Source of the DNA: a virus
DNA length: 64,000 bases
Strand: one strand, 5' to 3'
IMG/VR virus record: IMGVR_UViG_3300028025_002828
Span: 1-64,000 of that record
Position 1 is the stretch's first letter, and the number at the start of each line of letters is the position of its first letter. Of the stretch, positions 57,428 to 63,522 are shown piece by piece. The position numbers and the translations under genes were made by a program. Below the pieces are notes generated by a model, which was not told where the DNA came from, searched no databases, and saw nothing but the letters and a program-made list of their open reading frames with translations.

Positions 57428-58170
57428 TGTTGGCAGTGCGGACTAGTCTTAGTCTAGCATGTCATGTGTTTGTCATAATGATGCTGGTGTCAGCAGGTGT
57501 TTCATTTACTGCAGTTTTAATTGCCATCCCAATGATTTTAGTTGGTGGCTTTGCTGTCACAGGATTTTTACATAGATCTATTGCTCATAGAACATACACA
57601 ATCACCAAAGGGTGGTTAAGGAAAACGCTACTGTTCTCCTCGTTGTTCAGTTTAATCGGAACACCACTAGGATGGGCGATAGTGCATAGAATGCATCACA
57701 GAAATCTAGATGGACCAGGAGATCCTCACAGTCCATGGCAGATAGGATTCTTTAGAAGTTACTGTCACTTGTGGCAACTCGATGAGAAGACAGTTGATCT
57801 TGGTGGGTGTCGAGATATCATAACCAACCGAGAGTTGTTGTTTTTCCACAAACACTGGTTGAAGATAACTCTTGTAATTTGGTTGACTTTTTATATGATA
57901 TGGGGTATGATAGGTCTATATGCGATAGGGTTAGCTGGTGTGTTTGCTTTCCATGCCTTTGGTGTTGCGAATGCGGTATGTCATTACGGAAGAGCAAGTG
58001 GTGATATCGTAGACCTACCTAAAATGAGTTGGCTAAACTTCGGTGAGAACTTTCATAGTTACCATCACAGTTTTCCTAGTGCGTATAGATTTACTGCAAC
58101 AAAATCAGACCCATCGGCAACTATCATTGAGTGGTTGATGAAAAATAATTTAGCAGTAGTTCGAAAGTGA
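57421..58170 (+). CDS. Membrane fatty-acid desaturase (second copy)
   Basis: 249 residues from ATG 57421 (AGGTAG upstream; ATG 57400 possible). Several hydrophobic segments and three His boxes: HRSIAH, HRMHH and HSYHH, with GDPHSPW after the second box as in acyl-CoA desaturases. More like bacterial delta-9 desaturases than the copy at 34815. It may keep the host membrane fluid or change it during infection. Confidence 0.88.
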   Translation: MLMLAVRTSLSLACHVFVIMMLVSAGVSFTAVLIAIPMILVGGFAVTGFLHRSIAHRTYTITKGWLRKTLLFSSLFSLIGTPLGWAIVHRMHHRNLDGPGDPHSPWQIGFFRSYCHLWQLDEKTVDLGGCRDIITNRELLFFHKHWLKITLVIWLTFYMIWGMIGLYAIGLAGVFAFHAFGVANAVCHYGRASGDIVDLPKMSWLNFGENFHSYHHSFPSAYRFTATKSDPSATIIEWLMKNNLAVVRK

Positions 58171-58181
58171 TCGATTTCTGT

Positions 58182-58189
58182 TATAAATA
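58182..58189 (+). promoter_or_regulatory. T4-type late promoter TATAAATA
   Basis: Exact octamer 11 nt after the desaturase stop, upstream of the hairpin and early promoter that precede the tRNA cluster; it would allow late transcription of the tRNAs. Confidence 0.6.
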
Positions 58190-58197
58190 GATTTGTA

Positions 58198-58216
58198 ACC
58201 CTACTAGTAGTAGGGT
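58198..58216 (+). terminator. Hairpin ACCCTACT/AGTAGGGT
   Basis: Perfect 8-bp stem (58198-58205 with 58209-58216), 3-nt loop, followed by CTTCC rather than T-run. Same hairpin family as at 53358 and 60431. Confidence 0.6.
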
Positions 58217-58231
58217 CTTCCAACAAAGTGC

Positions 58232-58260
58232 TTTACTTTAAATCAAAAAAGGTTTATACT
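58232..58260 (+). promoter_or_regulatory. Promoter of the leader RNA and tRNA operon
   Basis: TTTACT (58232-58237), 17 bp, TATACT (58255-58260). Transcription would start near 58267, at the first base of the attenuator-like RNA. Confidence 0.8.
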
Positions 58261-58266
58261 TCTTTT

Positions 58267-58440
58267 ATGTTAAATTTTTCAATATCCTGTCAGAAACATC
58301 TACCACTCTTTAGTGGATGGACGATCTCACGCACAGGCTATGCGATTGAAAATAACGTGAGGGTTCGGCAAGTAAATTAACTGACACACCAGTTTACTTA
58401 CCCAACCCTCTAAGATGAAAGTCTAGAGGGTTTTTTGTTT
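58267..58440 (+). ncRNA. Attenuator-like structured RNA at the head of the tRNA operon
   Basis: The 3' end is a textbook terminator: AACCCTCTA (58404-58412) / TAGAGGGTT (58424-58432) plus T6. The left arm AACCCTC can instead pair with GAGGGTT at 58359-58365, enclosing a hairpin AAGTA..AACTG / CAGTTTACTT (58370-58399). That antiterminator in turn overlaps CTCACG / CGTGAG (58326-58331, 58356-58361). An upstream CCACT/AGTGG hairpin (58303-58316) completes it. Such mutually exclusive helices are the architecture of riboswitches and attenuators. The alternative is a short stable RNA with a multi-helix body. The ligand or trigger is unknown. Confidence 0.65.
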
Positions 58441-58490
58441 TAGGGCATCGTCCCAATCCTGTTCATTAAAAATTAGCGTACTAAAATTGT

Positions 58491-58564
58491 TCCCTGATAG
58501 TGTAGCGGTAACACAGTTGACTTTGACTCAACTATCGCAGGTTCGAATCCTGCTCGGGGTGCCA
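58491..58564 (+). tRNA. tRNA-Gln (TTG)
   Basis: Anticodon stem GTTGA/TCAAC with loop CTTTGAC; encoded CCA. Acceptor TCCCTGA/TCGGGGT has a U1-U72 mismatch, with weak pair 1-72 as in other tRNA-Gln. First of the cluster. Confidence 0.9.
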
Positions 58565-58568
58565 AAAT

Positions 58569-58642
58569 GGGGGTGAAACTTTAAGGTGAAGTAACTGGCT
58601 TTTAACCAGTAAAACTCGGATCGTTCCCGAGCACCCCTACCA
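58569..58642 (+). tRNA. tRNA-Lys (TTT)
   Basis: Loop CTTTTAA between ACTGG/CCAGT; acceptor GGGGGTG/CACCCC T with A73 and CCA. Confidence 0.9.
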
Positions 58643-58655
58643 AGAATTCTTTGGT

Positions 58656-58729
58656 GTGACCATAACTTAATGGTAAAGTCGTGGATTGTGATTCCGCTTA
58701 TCTGGGTTCAATTCCCAGTGGTCACCCCA
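58656..58729 (+). tRNA. tRNA-His (GTG)
   Basis: Loop TTGTGAT between GTGGA/TCCGC; acceptor GTGACCA/TGGTCAC, discriminator C73, CCA. The base at position -1 in the gene is T, not the G-1 usual in bacterial tRNA-His. Confidence 0.88.
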
Positions 58730-58738
58730 AAGAATTTT

Positions 58739-58813
58739 AGTGATATAGCAAAGTGGTAATGCGCTTCCTTCATACGGAAGTTACCGTAGGTTCGAATCCT
58801 ACTATCACTACCA
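58739..58813 (+). tRNA. tRNA with CAT anticodon (Met elongator or Ile2)
   Basis: Loop TTCATAC between CTTCC/GGAAG; acceptor AGTGATA/TATCACT, A73, CCA. D-stem has C11-G24 (elongator type). Could be tRNA-Ile read as lysidine-AU; identity cannot be settled by eye. Confidence 0.88.
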
Positions 58814-58818
58814 ACATC

Positions 58819-58893
58819 GGGCTGTTAGTATACGGGGTATTATTCCTGCCTTGCACGTAGGAGAAAAGGGTTCGAGTCCCTTACGGTCCACCA
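58819..58893 (+). tRNA. tRNA-Ala (TGC)
   Basis: Loop CTTGCAC; acceptor GGGCTGT/ACGGTCC with the G3-U70 pair that marks alanine tRNAs; A73, CCA. Confidence 0.9.
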
Positions 58894-58898
58894 GTTAT

Positions 58899-58974
58899 TA
58901 CCGTGTAGCTCAATTGGCAGAGCTCTGGTCTCCAAAACCAGCGGTTGGCGGTTCAACTCCGTTCACGGTAGCCA
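58899..58974 (+). tRNA. tRNA-Trp (CCA)
   Basis: Loop CTCCAAA between CTGGT/ACCAG; acceptor TACCGTG/CACGGTA, G73, CCA. Confidence 0.9.
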
Positions 58975-58980
58975 GATTAT

Positions 58981-59072
58981 GGAAGATGATGCAGGTGCGT
59001 TGGTGCGCCGACCAGCCTTGAAAACTGGGTTCTCAGAAATGGGATGGGGTTCGACTCCTCCGTCTTCCGCCA
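58981..59072 (+). tRNA. tRNA-Ser (TGA)
   Basis: Loop CTTGAAA; acceptor GGAAGAT/GTCTTCC, G73, CCA; long variable arm (class II), total 92 nt. Confidence 0.9.
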
Positions 59073-59081
59073 AAATTATGT

Positions 59082-59156
59082 GCCTCGTTAACTCAGTGGT
59101 AGAGTGTCTCTTTTACACGGAGAAGGTCGGCAGTTCGAATCTGTCACGAGGTACCA
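59082..59156 (+). tRNA. tRNA-Val (TAC)
   Basis: Loop TTTACAC; acceptor GCCTCGT/ACGAGGT, A73, CCA. Confidence 0.9.
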
Positions 59157-59163
59157 AAATTTT

Positions 59164-59239
59164 ACCGAGGTAGCTCAGTTGGTAGAGCACTTGTTTGAAG
59201 CACAAGGTGTGGGCGGTTCGATCCCGTCTCTCGGTACCA
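59164..59239 (+). tRNA. tRNA-Phe (GAA)
   Basis: Loop TTGAAGC between CTTGT/ACAAG; acceptor ACCGAGG/TCTCGGT, A73, CCA. Confidence 0.92.
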
Positions 59240-59247
59240 AAAGTTAT

Positions 59248-59322
59248 TGCCGTGTAGCTCAGAGGAAGAGCAATCGCTTGATAAGCGATAGGTCGACATT
59301 TCAAAATTGTCCATGGCAACCA
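59248..59322 (+). tRNA. tRNA-Ile (GAT)
   Basis: Loop TTGATAA between ATCGC/GCGAT; acceptor TGCCGTG/CATGGCA, A73, CCA. T-loop is TTCAAAA. Confidence 0.88.
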
Positions 59323-59327
59323 GTTAT

Positions 59328-59404
59328 ATCCCAATGGCGCAATTGGTAGACGCACCTCTCTCAAAAGGAGGGTGTTGAGAGTTCGAGTCTCTCTTGGGAT
59401 ACCA
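59328..59404 (+). tRNA. tRNA-Leu (CAA), short variable loop
   Basis: Loop CTCAAAA between CCTCT/GGAGG; acceptor ATCCCAA/TTGGGAT, A73, CCA. Variable region is only 5 nt (GTGTT), whereas bacterial tRNA-Leu normally has a long arm. Confidence 0.85.
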
Positions 59405-59409
59405 GATTT

Positions 59410-59485
59410 ACCTCATTAGTAAAATGGAAGATTACACTGTGCTACGAACGCAGGGGTGGAGGTTCGATTCCTTCATGAGGTGCCA
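59410..59485 (+). tRNA. tRNA-Arg (ACG)
   Basis: Loop CTACGAA between CTGTG/CGCAG; acceptor ACCTCAT/ATGAGGT, G73, CCA. A34 would need host TadA to become inosine. Confidence 0.9.
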
Positions 59486-59491
59486 GAGTTA

Positions 59492-59581
59492 GGAAGATGG
59501 GCAGGACGGTAATGCAGCAGTTTGCTAAACTGTAGATTCACGGAAGTGGGTCATAGGGTTCGATTCCCTAATCTTCCACCA
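59492..59581 (+). tRNA. tRNA-Ser (GCT)
   Basis: Loop TTGCTAA; acceptor GGAAGAT/ATCTTCC, A73, CCA; class II long variable arm, 90 nt. Confidence 0.9.
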
Positions 59582-59582
59582 G

Positions 59583-59611
59583 TTGACATTAAATATGAAG
59601 TGAGTTATGAT
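59583..59611 (+). promoter_or_regulatory. Promoter inside the tRNA cluster
   Basis: TTGACA (59583-59588), 17 bp, TATGAT (59606-59611); start expected at about 59618-59620, immediately before the next tRNA. Confidence 0.75.
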
Positions 59612-59620
59612 AGTAATAGA

Positions 59621-59697
59621 GCGGATGTGACGGAATTGGTATACGTATCAGACTTAAAATCTGAGTTCTGTGGGTTCGACTCCCACCATCCGCACCA
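59621..59697 (+). tRNA. tRNA-Leu (TAA), short variable loop
   Basis: Loop CTTAAAA between TCAGA/TCTGA; acceptor GCGGATG/CATCCGC, A73, CCA. Variable region only 5 nt (GTTCT). Confidence 0.88.
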
Positions 59698-59704
59698 AAG
59701 ATAG

Positions 59705-59779
59705 GGGCTGGTAGCTTAATGGTAAAGCAGTGAACTCATAATTCATTGAGTCCTGGTTCAATTCCAGGTCAGCCCACCA
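59705..59779 (+). tRNA. tRNA with CAT anticodon (Met elongator or Ile2)
   Basis: Loop CTCATAA between GTGAA/TTCAT; acceptor GGGCTGG/TCAGCCC, A73, CCA. C11-G24 elongator-type D stem. Confidence 0.9.
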
Positions 59780-59796
59780 AACAGAAAGGATAGGAA

Positions 59797-60360
59797 ATGA
59801 ATGTTCTAGCACTAGACCAAAGTGGAATGCCACGGAAGTGGATAAATTTTGAAGATGCTGTTACATATCAAGCAAAGGGTATGGTAAATTGGTCACTTGG
59901 CGAAACGATTAAAGTGTTTCGTGGTGGTCACAATGATCAAGGAATTCAATCAGTAATTAGCATACCATCTATCATCGCTGTTCGTGGGTCTTCATTGAAG
60001 ATGAGTGGTAAAGTTATTTTGACAAACAAATCTCTATTCAGTAGAGATAGAAATCTTTGCGCATACTGTGGTGATACATTTTCATTGTCGCATCTTTCGC
60101 GTGATCATGTTATGCCAAAGTGTGAGGGTGGTAGAGATGTATGGACAAATGTTGTTACTGCGTGTAAACCTTGTAACATAAAGAAGGGTCGTAAGATCTT
60201 AGAGACTACTACTATGAAACTTCTCTATGTTCCGTATGAGCCGAATCATTTTGAAAACATGATTCTGATGAATAGAAATATTCTTGCTGATCAGATGGAA
60301 TATTTGATGTCGGGTGTTCCGAAAAATAGTAGAGTACGAAAAGATGTGGGTGTGCACTGA
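59797..60360 (+). CDS. HNH endonuclease
   Basis: 187 residues. RNLCAYCGDTFSLSHLSRDH is the zinc/HNH start, VMPKCEGGRDVWTNVVTACK the Asn-His core, and CKPCNIKKG the second zinc pair. N-terminal LALDQSGMPRKWINFEDAV matches a free-standing HNH family of bacteria and phages. It sits within the tRNA cluster, and its last 15 nt form the 5' acceptor strand of tRNA-Cys. It may be a mobile or homing-type gene; no intron is visible. Confidence 0.88.
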   Translation: MNVLALDQSGMPRKWINFEDAVTYQAKGMVNWSLGETIKVFRGGHNDQGIQSVISIPSIIAVRGSSLKMSGKVILTNKSLFSRDRNLCAYCGDTFSLSHLSRDHVMPKCEGGRDVWTNVVTACKPCNIKKGRKILETTTMKLLYVPYEPNHFENMILMNRNILADQMEYLMSGVPKNSRVRKDVGVH

Positions 60361-60421
60361 ATGGTTAGGTAGCTGATTGCAAATCAGTTTAATGCAGGTT
60401 CGAGTCCTGTCACCCACTCCA
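60346..60421 (+). tRNA. tRNA-Cys (GCA), overlapping the HNH gene
   Basis: Loop TTGCAAA; acceptor GTGGGTG/CACCCAC, discriminator U73 (Cys identity), CCA. The first 15 nt are the HNH stop region. Confidence 0.9.
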
Positions 60422-60428
60422 AAGGTTT

Positions 60429-60493
60429 AACCCTACTCACTGTAGGGGCTTCCAAAGATAATGTTTGACATTAAATAGAGGTTCATGTATAAT
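60429..60493 (+). promoter_or_regulatory. Hairpin plus promoter of the large structured RNA
   Basis: CCCTAC/GTAGGG hairpin (60431-60447), then TTGACA (60465-60470), 17 bp, TATAAT (60488-60493). Start expected near 60500. Confidence 0.85.
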
Positions 60494-60499
60494 TACTAT

Positions 60500-61208
60500 A
60501 TTGAGTTGAAAATGCTTGATGATGTGAAAATAAACACCACTTGGCGACCACTGAGGAACAGTGGTAAAACCAAAGACCCATGCCAACATGGGTCCACCGA
60601 GTGTAAGACAGAGGGATCGGATCCCCGAGGTCGCCAGTTGAAAAATTGCTGGCAAATGTTCTTTAAAAAGGTATGCGGTTTCGTGATTGTCTGCCACGTC
60701 GGGAGACGTTAAAACAATCACACTTTGCACGATTCGTCTATCGGTTAGGACACATGGTTTTCATCCATGTAAGAGCGGTTCGACTCCGCTATCGTGTACC
60801 AGATTTAATTGCATTGGGTTGCCAAGCCAGTAGGTGATCTAGGAGAGGATAACCAATCGACGGATTGGCTCTCGCTAGGTTACATGAAAGATGGAAACGA
60901 AGTGGAGTTCTACAGGGATGTAGAATGATGAAGCGGATACGGTGGTCACGCTGGAACAACTTGAATTGTAATGTGAGAAAGCAGCCAATCGTAGGACGGC
61001 TACGTGGGCATCCGAGAACTCGGGATGCTGCTGATCATCCCAGTGTAATTAAATGTGGTATTAGTTTAGTGTTATCAAGGTATCGTCATAAGACGTTATG
61101 ACTACTCGACAGTTAGGGTGCGACTGAAACTGTCTGATATAACTGCTATTCGCTTGTCAGTGCTAGCTACATTGTTGACAAATAGGCAGATAACACTAAA
61201 CTAATATC
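60500..61208 (+). ncRNA. Large multi-domain structured RNA with embedded tRNA-Glu
   Basis: Driven by its own consensus promoter. Domain A: TGGCGACC (60542-60549) / GGTCGCCA (60629-60636) closing hairpins CCACTG/CAGTGG (loop AGGAA), GACCCATG/CATGGGTC (CCAA loop) and GGGAT/ATCCC. A further GTGATTGT/ACAATCAC arm (60683-60690, 60714-60721) is capped by ACGTC-GGGA-GACGT, a GNRA loop. tRNA-Glu follows. Domain B: a 16-bp helix (60803-60818 with 61039-61054, two G-U pairs) closes an arm 60834-60883, TTCTACA-GGGA-TGTAGAA (60908-60925), CGTAG/CTACG and GCATCC/GGATGC. Domain C: a 20-bp helix (61057-61076 with 61189-61208) closes three hairpins. Domains abut with 1-2 nt spacers. No long reading frame with a ribosome site fits. 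Size, ornament and tRNA context recall GOLLD/ROOL-type RNAs. Confidence 0.82.
60727..60801 (+). tRNA. tRNA-Glu (TTC), inside the large RNA
   Basis: Loop TTTTCAT between CATGG/CCATG; acceptor GCACGAT/ATCGTGT, A73, CCA. Flanked directly by helices of the large structured RNA. Confidence 0.9.
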
Positions 61209-61210
61209 AT

Positions 61211-61302
61211 GCGTGAACGGTAACGATGGTGGTGTTGCAGCAGACTGTAAATCTGTTCCCTCTGGGTAAACAATGGTGGTTCGAATCCATCTTCACGCAC
61301 CA
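61211..61302 (+). tRNA. tRNA-Tyr (GTA)
   Basis: Loop CTGTAAA between GCAGA/TCTGT; long variable arm; acceptor GCGTGAA/TTCACGC, A73, CCA. Starts 2 nt after the large RNA's last helix. Confidence 0.9.
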
Positions 61303-61309
61303 AATGTTA

Positions 61310-61384
61310 GGCTCGTTCGTATAATGGTCATTACGTCGGATTGTCTATCCGATCATGGGAGTTCGATTCTCCCACGAGTCGCCA
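61310..61384 (+). tRNA. tRNA-Asp (GTC)
   Basis: Loop TTGTCTA between TCGGA/TCCGA; acceptor GGCTCGT/ACGAGTC, G73, CCA. Confidence 0.92.
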
Positions 61385-61393
61385 AGTTTTTAT

Positions 61394-61467
61394 AGCGGAT
61401 TAGAGAAATGGTATCTCAGCAGTCTCATACGCTGCAGTTGGTGGTTCGACTCCATCATCCGCAACCA
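61394..61467 (+). tRNA. tRNA-fMet-like initiator (CAT)
   Basis: Loop CTCATAC between GCAGT/GCTGC. Initiator features: 1-72 is an A-A mismatch, D stem has A11-U24, and the 3' end CGCAACCA equals that of E. coli tRNA-fMet. It lacks the three G-C pairs of the initiator anticodon stem, so the assignment is likely but not certain. Confidence 0.8.
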
Positions 61468-61475
61468 GTTAGTCA

Positions 61476-61549
61476 GCCCTATTAGTATAATGGTATTACA
61501 CCTGTTTTGTAATCAGGTTACGGCAGTTCGATTCTGTCATGGGGCACCA
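61476..61549 (+). tRNA. tRNA-Thr (TGT)
   Basis: Loop TTTGTAA between CCTGT/TCAGG (U31-U39 mismatch); acceptor GCCCTAT/ATGGGGC, A73, CCA. Confidence 0.88.
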
Positions 61550-61583
61550 TTCGTTTGTTTTGATTTTTAGTATAGGAAAGAAA

Positions 61584-62156
61584 ATGGAAAAAGTTACACT
61601 TCGTAAAGCAAATGCAATTCAAGGCGAGATCCGTAGATTGATCGCAAGTAAAAATGCTAGTGAATCAATTAGCATCACGGAATTCACTGCAGATGTTGCA
61701 GAAGTTCTTGAGAAAGCAATGGATAATTTTGCTGTTGATGTTACACGTAAGGTAGCATTAAACACAGCATTGTATAACATTCGTAAGAGTGTTTCTCGGG
61801 CAAATGCCACTTCTGGCATCAGCGATCTACTTGCTGATATTGAGTTGATCGATGCAACTATGGCAATCTACAGTGGCATTAGCACTAAAGAAGTAGCTAA
61901 GTCTTTGACTGAGATTAATGCACGTGTTGAGAAAGTTAAAGCAGCACCAGCAGAAACACGTATGTATGGTCGTTACGATAATGTTGAAACATCTGTTGTT
62001 GAACAGAGCACTATCGACATTGCCAAAGATACAGTTAAAAAATTAAAACGTGAGAAGCAAAATGCTTCTGACAAACTATTGACGTTGAATGTCAATACAA
62101 CAATTGACATCTCTGATGTCGATGCGATGGTTTTGAAAGTAGAAGGTATTATTTAA
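61584..62156 (+). CDS. Conserved phage protein of unknown function
   Basis: 190 residues from ATG 61584 (AGGAAAG upstream). Helical: KVTLRKANAIQGEIRRLIAS and VTRKVALNTALYNIRKSVSR; beta-type end DKLLTLNVNTTIDISDVDAM. A protein with this start (VTLRKAN.IQ) is known to me from several phages without function. It interrupts the tRNA cluster between tRNA-Thr and a structured RNA; RNA binding is a speculation. Confidence 0.7.
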   Translation: MEKVTLRKANAIQGEIRRLIASKNASESISITEFTADVAEVLEKAMDNFAVDVTRKVALNTALYNIRKSVSRANATSGISDLLADIELIDATMAIYSGISTKEVAKSLTEINARVEKVKAAPAETRMYGRYDNVETSVVEQSTIDIAKDTVKKLKREKQNASDKLLTLNVNTTIDISDVDAMVLKVEGII

Positions 62157-62161
62157 GTTTT

Positions 62162-62403
62162 GAGGGACAATGCGTAGAGGATAGGGAATAGAGCAAAAAA
62201 CTAATACTTAAAAGTATTGGCTTTGGTCTTGAAAACCAACTCCTGACAAATTCGTCCAACCTTGTTGTTGCTCCACGATACACTAGACTGTTATAGTCGC
62301 TGCTTATTGCTTCGTGTTGTATAACTCTTGTGGGCTGTCCATTGCATATTGCACACTGCAAATTGCTTTGCGACTATTCGCTTGAATTGAAACATTGTTC
62401 CTC
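62162..62403 (+). ncRNA. Second structured RNA in the tRNA cluster
   Basis: Closed by an 11-bp helix, GAGGGACAATG (62162-62172) with CATTGTTCCTC (62393-62403), one G-U pair. Inside are GAGCAA (62191-62196) / TTGCTC (62268-62273) enclosing AATACT/AGTATT (62203-62218) and TTGGT-CTTGAAA-ACCAA (62223-62239), a 7-nt loop that looks like a TGA anticodon arm; and ATAGTCGC (62293-62300) / GCGACTAT (62370-62377). No coding frame. Begins just after the 62156 stop and ends 9 nt before tRNA-Leu. Confidence 0.68.
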
Positions 62404-62412
62404 ACCCTGTTA

Positions 62413-62489
62413 GCCCCGATGACGGAATTGGTATACGTGTTGGTCTTAGAAGCCAAATTTTGAGAGTTCGAGTCTCTCTTGGGGCACCA
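62413..62489 (+). tRNA. tRNA-Leu (TAG), short variable loop
   Basis: Loop CTTAGAA between TTGGT/GCCAA; acceptor GCCCCGA/TTGGGGC, A73, CCA. Variable region 5 nt (ATTTT). Confidence 0.88.
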
Positions 62490-62496
62490 ATTTTAT

Positions 62497-62572
62497 TCCG
62501 CAGTAGCTCAGTCGGTAGAGTAGATGACTGTTAATCATTTGGTCGGTGGTTCGAGCCCACCCTGTGGAGCCA
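62497..62572 (+). tRNA. tRNA-Asn (GTT)
   Basis: Loop CTGTTAA between GATGA/TCATT; acceptor TCCGCAG/CTGTGGA, G73, CCA. Confidence 0.9.
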
Positions 62573-62580
62573 ATTTTAAT

Positions 62581-62659
62581 CCGAGTGTAGGATAGTCTGG
62601 TTCATTCCGCTTGCTTTGGGAGCAAGATGTCGCAGGTTCGAATCCTGCCACTCGGACCA
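62581..62659 (+). tRNA. tRNA-Pro (TGG)
   Basis: Loop TTTGGGA between CTTGC/GCAAG; acceptor CCGAGTG/CACTCGG, A73, CCA. Confidence 0.9.
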
Positions 62660-62674
62660 TGCAATTTAATAAAC

Positions 62675-62703
62675 TTTACAATTTAGTTTTAGAAGAATAT
62701 AAT
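62675..62703 (+). promoter_or_regulatory. Promoter of the last two tRNAs
   Basis: TTTACA (62675-62680), 17 bp, TATAAT (62698-62703); start expected near 62710, at the tRNA-Gly gene. Confidence 0.8.
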
Positions 62704-62712
62704 AGAATTATC

Positions 62713-62786
62713 GCAGGATTAGTTTAATGGTAAAATGTCTTCCTTCCAAGTAGATGTCATCAGTTCGATTCTGATATCCTGCTCCA
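62713..62786 (+). tRNA. tRNA-Gly (TCC)
   Basis: Loop CTTCCAA between TCTTC/GTAGA (one mismatch); acceptor GCAGGAT/ATCCTGC, U73, CCA. Confidence 0.88.
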
Positions 62787-62793
62787 TTAACAT

Positions 62794-62868
62794 ACGGCAT
62801 TCGTTCAACGGATAGGACATGGTTCTTCTAAAGCCAGAATGGTGGTTCGATTCCTCCATGCCGTACCA
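62794..62868 (+). tRNA. tRNA-Arg (TCT)
   Basis: Loop CTTCTAA between TGGTT/AGCCA; acceptor ACGGCAT/ATGCCGT, A73, CCA. Last tRNA of the cluster. Confidence 0.9.
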
Positions 62869-62870
62869 GC

Positions 62871-62877
62871 CTAAATA
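62871..62877 (+). promoter_or_regulatory. CTAAATA late-promoter-like motif
   Basis: Directly after tRNA-Arg and 31 nt before the GTG at 62908; would switch on the last genes of the window late. Confidence 0.5.
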
Positions 62878-62907
62878 GTATATGGACAATAATCTAAGGA
62901 ACTAAAC

Positions 62908-63522
62908 GTGATAAACTTACAACATAAAATTTCAAATCCCTTCTCTAAATATTATTCATGGGATAAGATGCCAGACAAATATTCGTCTGAGGGTTTAATC
63001 AGAAAGCAATTATCCGAAGAGTTGTTGGGTTGGTTAGAAAACATGGATTTATACATCGCAGAAGCCAGAGCGGTGAACTTATTTCCGTCAACAACAGTAC
63101 CAATTTTAGTACAAGCTGATTTTTGCACTATCGGATCCTCTGCCAAATTGGTAATTATTTGCCCAGAAGATGCGACGATACTATACAACAAGTATGTTAT
63201 CAAAGATGGAATAGAAGTTTCAGTTGACAACTATGAATCGTTGTTATCTAATCCTGGCGACATCGAAGAAACAAAATTTAAAACGATACCACATGGCTGG
63301 AATATTTCACCCGATGCAGTGACACACGATAGTTCTACAGAACTTGTGGCAGGTGATACATATTTACTTGAAACAGGCACACCCCACTCAATAACATGTA
63401 GAGATAATTGTAGAACAAGGTATATTGAATTGTCTATCTACAATCGCAATACTTTCGTTCCCGATGTATACGGTATCTCATATAATGCAGCGAAAGATCT
63501 GCTATGTACGCCCAAGACCTAA
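62908..63522 (+). CDS. Cupin/oxygenase-like protein, probably without the iron site
   Basis: 204 residues from GTG (AAGGA 7 nt upstream). The C-terminal strand order AGDTYLLETGTPHSITCRDN and RTRYIELSIYN resembles the distal His and Arg of 2OG oxygenases, but the usual H-x-D is replaced by QAD in VPILVQADF. It looks like a diverged relative of the following gene. Function unknown; a structural or sensor role is possible. Confidence 0.62.
   Translation: MINLQHKISNPFSKYYSWDKMPDKYSSEGLIRKQLSEELLGWLENMDLYIAEARAVNLFPSTTVPILVQADFCTIGSSAKLVIICPEDATILYNKYVIKDGIEVSVDNYESLLSNPGDIEETKFKTIPHGWNISPDAVTHDSSTELVAGDTYLLETGTPHSITCRDNCRTRYIELSIYNRNTFVPDVYGISYNAAKDLLCTPKT

Follow-up and report, generated by a model that had tools for sequence, protein, structure and literature searches.

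GOLLD is a structured phage RNA that lies near tRNA islands and has a linker that sometimes holds tRNAs, and in mycobacterial tRNA arrays it has been found together with an HNH gene (PMC12286853, PMC6582537). ROOL, an ornate RNA of phages and prophages, is also often located near tRNA islands (PMC12286853), and Theta (HDV-like) ribozymes sit directly at the 3' ends of phage tRNAs (PMC10879173). Outside the phage world, boxA-bound Nus factors and the leader-trailer helix of rRNA both serve subunit biogenesis (PMC10250234). The tRNA cluster of phage T4 contains two annotated small stable RNAs, species 1 and 2, i.e., rnaC (139 nt) and rnaD (119 nt), the latter starting 1 nt after tRNA-Arg.

The stretch of DNA analysed here (the window) comprises 64,000 bases out of a 71,292-base IMG/VR virus record and comes from an uncultured T4-like phage with a cluster of tRNA genes, its DNA polymerase being closest to those of T4-like cyanophages and marine viruses (54%). 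ARAGORN recovered 25 tRNAs between 58491 and 62868. The region under study is bounded by tRNA-Cys (60346-60421) and tRNA-Tyr (61211-61302) with tRNA-Glu (60727-60801) in the middle, and reads, in order, promoter, optional module C, boxA-like site, hairpin, and then tRNA-Glu, module A, module B and tRNA-Tyr without spacer. Its features are as follows.

60465..60493, + strand: sigma-70 promoter TTGACA-17-TATAAT of the tRNA-Glu transcription unit (12/12 consensus bases)
60528..60655 (borders approximate), + strand: module C, optional, local hairpins (88-90% identical copies in L011, L028, L039, L040/L041)
60657..60668, + strand: boxA-like element TGTTCTTTAAAA (motif enriched upstream of array features)
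60683..60721, + strand: leader hairpin GTGATTGT...ACAATCAC between the boxA-like site and tRNA-Glu (predicted fold; counterpart with changed stem in L027)
60727..60801, + strand: tRNA-Glu(TTC) with CCA at its end (ARAGORN; Rfam tRNA 54 bits)
60797..60801, + strand: TACCA at the end of tRNA-Glu, 5' half of the CCA clamp (potential partner TGGTA 61056-61060)
60802..61054, + strand: module A, structured RNA with P1 as its closing helix, 60803-60818 with 61039-61054 (122 loci; covariation in 39 sequences)
61055..61210, + strand: module B, structured RNA whose closing helix has 22 bp, 61055-61076 with 61189-61210 (56 loci; covariation in 25 sequences)
61056..61060, + strand: TGGTA, which forms the 3' half of the CCA clamp and also lies in the 5' arm of B P1 (predicted duplexes)
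61211..61302, + strand: tRNA-Tyr, directly after B (ARAGORN; spacing 0-1 nt in relatives with A and B before tRNA-Tyr)

Separable modules in a tRNA array

A sequence-only reading of this DNA had taken the region for one ornate RNA of ~700 nt, and several of its elements hold up. The consensus promoter is there and is the only 12/12 site within 58000-63000; L002 has kept it, and L003 has a slightly changed version. The 16-bp long-range helix (60803-60818 with 61039-61054) is likewise present, and so is a second long helix (61055-61076 with 61189-61210), although it measures 22 bp by MFE and not the 20 bp given originally; the domains abut as described, with spacers of 0 nt between them. The predicted fold is far more stable than those of dinucleotide shuffles, with z-scores of -6.7 for 60802-61210, -8.5 for 60500-61210 and -3.2 for 60422-60726.

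The unity of the RNA did not survive comparison with relatives. Homologues were collected by four pattern scans of viral contigs and by nhmmer profiles, and the resulting 122 A loci and 56 B loci (counts that include a few overlapping pieces of one contig) show A followed directly by B, A alone, or B without an adjacent A; B can stand hundreds to thousands of bases from A, sometimes after tRNA-Gly, Asp or Glu. Two related contigs were reached via a neighbouring protein, and both carry the RNA between tRNA-Glu and tRNA-Tyr; in one of these (L002) module C (~60528-60655) is cleanly gone and stem-loops inside A and B are swapped. In L011, L028 and L039-L041 the distances around module C differ as well. 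A GOLLD-like RNA of ~700 nt with an embedded tRNA would draw on the promoter, the contiguous structured region, the tRNA between domains and the ability of the GOLLD linker to hold tRNAs (PMC12286853), but C, A and B are gained and lost independently, tRNA-Glu is a separate gene between modules and outside any closed domain, and a match to GOLLD or ROOL is absent. Because the modules are independent in relatives, the region consists of separable modules in a row, and a single 700-nt RNA is strongly disfavoured, to the point of having almost no probability left.

Among three distinct C sequences, too few for a covariation test, the 8-bp helix of module C showed no compensatory changes. A match of this module to RAGATH-20 (24.4 bits, E 0.17, where the gathering score is 101.4) is a chance one. 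Chance also accounts for eleven contigs that matched the first pattern and have neither A nor tRNAs (L004, L007, L008, L012, L017-L019, L021-L023, L025), and for the single pattern match in bacterial genomes (L134), with no tRNA nearby; all relatives of A are virus contigs from a public collection. In cultured phages, the whole region as query retrieved tRNA-Glu only among the matches listed, and nothing convincing was obtained with A and B together, with the spacer between tRNA-Cys and tRNA-Glu or with 14 diverse A sequences as queries.

Several other elements are seen in these arrays. Element D (~250 nt, probably structured and non-coding) occupies 62157-62412 of the window, between the ORF 61584-62156 and tRNA-Leu; it has nine distinct homologues (e.g., L003:6591-6847), is closed by GAGGGACAATG/CATTGTTCCTC and has CTATTCGCTTG in common with the core of B. 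At 58981-59068 lies a class-II tRNA-like gene missed by ARAGORN, with tRNA-Sec as its best Rfam model (35.4 bits, below the cutoff of 47), 19 distinct homologues and nine covarying pairs, perhaps an unusual tRNA-Ser. Two inter-tRNA families have no Rfam match among those listed, i.e., L031:3440-3640 and relatives (33 loci, 17/39 pairs covarying) and L002:5586-5810 and relatives (10 loci, 12/52 pairs covarying). An ORF at 59797-60360 that resembles HNH endonucleases by eye (CAYCGD...DHVMPKCEGG) overlaps tRNA-Cys with its 3' end, and the spacer that contains it is conserved in about 16 relatives.

Modules A and B and an exchangeable slot

Module A, found in one copy per locus, is about 200-255 nt long, and its consensus of 70 pairs, derived from 39 diverse sequences, is paired in 91.7% of cells (76.1% in shuffled alignments). 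Both sides have changed at 52 of the 70 pairs (35.1 +/- 2.0 shuffled), and the covariation score is 0.442, compared with 0.169 +/- 0.007 for shuffles and at most 0.098 for sliding controls. In a larger set of 75 sequences, 45/63 pairs display two or more Watson-Crick types that each occur in at least two sequences. Module B (~155 nt, also one copy in each of its loci) behaves similarly: in 25 sequences 89.6% of the cells are paired, 39/57 pairs have changed on both sides (25.4 +/- 2.2 shuffled) and the score is 0.424 (0.158 +/- 0.009 shuffled; sliding at most 0.103), with one measure, that of further pair types, on which 23 of 500 shuffles did as well. Alignment was sequence-based (MAFFT), and the consensus structures come from those same alignments; for both modules the shuffles lose the relatedness of the sequences, whereas the slid controls keep it and agree. 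Both long helices of the window, 60803/61039 and 61057/61189 (helix 1 in the A and B tables), covary and do not show the uncompensated drift of their arms that would have refuted the sequence-only reading. A reading of A and B as peptide-coding is unlikely given their indels and swapped arms with base-paired conservation.

Within A, loops and joints are invariant across divergent sequences (GACG-type loops, GAAA, TAATGT), which suggests that the body of the RNA is functional and the closing helix is not all that matters. Its upstream neighbour is usually tRNA-Glu and also Gln, Ile or Leu, the body being kept; in some loci where no tRNA precedes A, it has a boxA-like leader or a -10-like TATAAT just upstream.

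Whether the region belonged to a known class or a new one had been left open at first. Against all families of Rfam 15, cmscan of the window returned tRNA alone at gathering thresholds and nothing credible at permissive settings, which speaks against membership in a GOLLD/ROOL-type class, and among the matches listed for relatives (12 at the gathering threshold, five at 1e-4) there were only tRNA-type or antisense-of-tRNA ones. The GOLLD covariance model was unmatched in the window up to E 10 and absent among the matches listed for relatives; the ROOL model and the HDV-type models were likewise unmatched in both. No description of A or B RNAs was found in the open-licence literature, an earlier description elsewhere being possible. 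Judged by sequence comparison, A and B represent separate families of structured RNA, both strongly covarying and unrecorded in Rfam; the covariation supports a new class, yet in the form of at least two independent families plus further modules.

The 3' end of B coincides with the 5' end of a tRNA, or B starts right after CCA. Loci in which A is not followed by B often have another module, of 128-132 nt or 200-211 nt, in the slot ahead of the next tRNA; its interior is unrelated, but the outer arms GTGGTATTAG...CTAATATCAT are those of B and the closing helix measures ~23 bp. By sequence, modules are swapped between phages with the shared outer helix arms kept. Such an arrangement, i.e., one slot with swapped modules and common outer arms, together with terminal inverted repeats that include CCA/TGG and the HNH-endonuclease-like ORF in the same array, would also be expected of mobile or selfish cassettes that insert at tRNA 3' ends and whose RNA structure aids their spread or harmlessness. 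We consider this quite improbable, as modules occur in a single copy per locus and without a transposase, compensation maintains the helices within them, and A stays after tRNA-Glu in most loci.

As to the individual fillers of the slot, the 128-132-nt module follows A in ten loci (L063, L011, L073, L080, L115, L117, L062, L069, L129, L054); beneath its ~23-bp closing helix with B-type outer arms, the inner arms covary and the interior is unrelated to B. The 200-211-nt module follows A in L055, L095 and L114 and has GTGGTATTAGTT...AACTAATATCAT arms and a different interior.

The CCA clamp and boxA-like leaders

In most loci A starts at the nucleotide directly after CCA, and in 61 of 64 distinct loci a mirrored TGG stands opposite the upstream CCA, extending the closing helix of A into the tRNA. 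When the upstream triplet is other than CCA, its mirrored complement is still found in 15/16 cases (CTA/TAG, AGT/ACT). The predicted closing helix is thus extended by CCA-TGG pairing that is conserved by covariation, which we call the CCA clamp. In the window a G.G mismatch (60802/61055) separates the clamp from P1, and the predicted clamp and B P1 pairings are mutually exclusive, since 61056-61060 is common to both. CCA-anchored helices of at least 12 bp occur in 30/349 array spacers without a long ORF (1.0 expected from permuted tails) and in 0/118 ORF-bearing ones, and 11 spacers containing neither A nor B have such helices of at least 10 bp. Spacers of ~70-96 nt with long terminal helices were seen between Lys and His (L049/L067/L071), Leu and Ala (L058/L070) and Gln and Lys (L061), several with CCA-TGG clamps, e.g., TATAAAAGCAC...GTGTTTCTATATGG.

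The clamp also fits a role in cis in tRNA 3'-end maturation. Modules of this kind would time or aid the formation of the tRNA 3' end by keeping CCA in a helix until a nuclease (e.g., RNase III or a phage enzyme) cuts, and their bodies would be disposable; the near-constant clamp, the CCA-anchored helices in spacers without A or B and the 0-nt junctions are what one would expect. Yet there is one A per locus although arrays reach ~30 tRNAs, most array spacers have no such module, A is also present without a tRNA in front, and its elaborate body is conserved. A single copy per locus is more in keeping with a gene that acts in trans than with a spacer-processing signal, which every tRNA would need, and we regard maturation in cis as unlikely, though the most serious competitor of a trans-acting RNA.

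The motif GTTC[GTA]TTAAA, found at 59 sites (46 distinct contexts) within 100 nt upstream of tRNA, A or B starts, is enriched ~45-fold over the 1.3 sites expected at the rate seen elsewhere, and it resembles the E. coli rrn boxA (TGCTCTTTAACA); its identification as boxA is by likeness and position only. Most sites lie 25-30 nt before the first tRNA (Gln), others before tRNA-Glu or, in loci without an upstream tRNA, 53-60 nt before A. The window has two, one at 60657 between the promoter and tRNA-Glu and one near 58460 before tRNA-Gln. Array units start with a boxA-like site, and the tRNA-Glu unit with a perfect promoter as well. Boxes at unit starts in a long untranslated array raise the idea that A and B are themselves put-like RNA elements that act in cis on antitermination, letting polymerase read through the array. 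This is very unlikely, given that A and B mostly follow tRNAs in the middle of arrays and do not stand directly behind promoters, and that the boxA-like site is separate from A and B and can precede tRNAs alone.

A proposed role and its relation to known RNAs

We propose, with a probability of roughly 0.58, that A and B act in trans as non-coding RNAs, which are co-transcribed with tRNAs under boxA-type antitermination and freed by cuts at tRNA ends. By analogy with rRNA operons, a boxA-modified RNA polymerase (NusB/S10 type) would transcribe the long untranslated array, and the terminal helices would fold like the rRNA leader-trailer helices. RNase P may then cut at the 5' end of tRNA-Tyr and an endonuclease either between CCA and A or within the clamp, cuts that would free both tRNAs as well as the A and B RNAs; in the window phage, A and B might remain joined as one 409-nt RNA. 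Once released, they could persist as compact RNAs that act in trans during infection, for which the stable RNAs in the tRNA cluster of T4 offer a precedent. Action in trans is favoured because of the single copy per locus, the indifference to the adjacent tRNA and the conserved body, and a role in translation or RNA metabolism is the most likely one because the modules travel with tRNAs.

More broadly, the tRNA arrays of this group of phages could be a platform for exchangeable RNA cassettes, in which unrelated structured families (A, B, the two alternative occupants of the B slot and some smaller families) are attached to tRNA 3' ends by a CCA-clamp helix, transcribed with rRNA-type antitermination and released by tRNA processing. 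We put this forward tentatively, at somewhat less than even odds; if true, it would be a previously unrecognised means to carry and swap trans-acting RNAs. Given that the end helix pairs with the tail of the preceding tRNA and that the families recur in more than 100 phage contigs, tRNA clusters also carry exchangeable structured RNAs, which suggests a role for these clusters beyond helping translation. The list of structured phage RNAs near tRNAs is short, and it thereby gains at least two families that covary strongly and have dozens of divergent members apiece; their defined 5' and 3' ends, mutable CCA clamp and boxA-like leader are open to testing.

Of the systems described so far, rnaC and rnaD of T4 are nearest to A and B in place and size. 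Searched against T4 69500-73500, the nhmmer profile of A found nothing and that of B only a match of E 2.3 on the opposite strand, and a TGG clamp was not seen by eye at the T4 tRNA-Arg/rnaD junction, unlike at A. Small HDV-like ribozymes are two to four times smaller than A and B. The two modules differ from Theta ribozymes also in that CCA, just upstream of the junction, takes part in the terminal helix. With the rRNA operon leader, the array units have in common a boxA-like site at the start followed by a long helix around a structured RNA, but here the enclosed RNAs are phage non-coding modules, in which Rfam found no rRNA homology. GOLLD shares the location in phage tRNA islands; its descriptions in PMC12286853 and PMC6582537 contain no CCA clamp, and here the modules are much smaller and separable, with tRNA-Glu placed between the independent modules C and A and not inside an RNA. 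ROOL forms one unit of ~660 nt, as opposed to modules of 155-255 nt. Thus, A and B are unlike both GOLLD and ROOL in being small, modular and exactly joined to tRNA ends.
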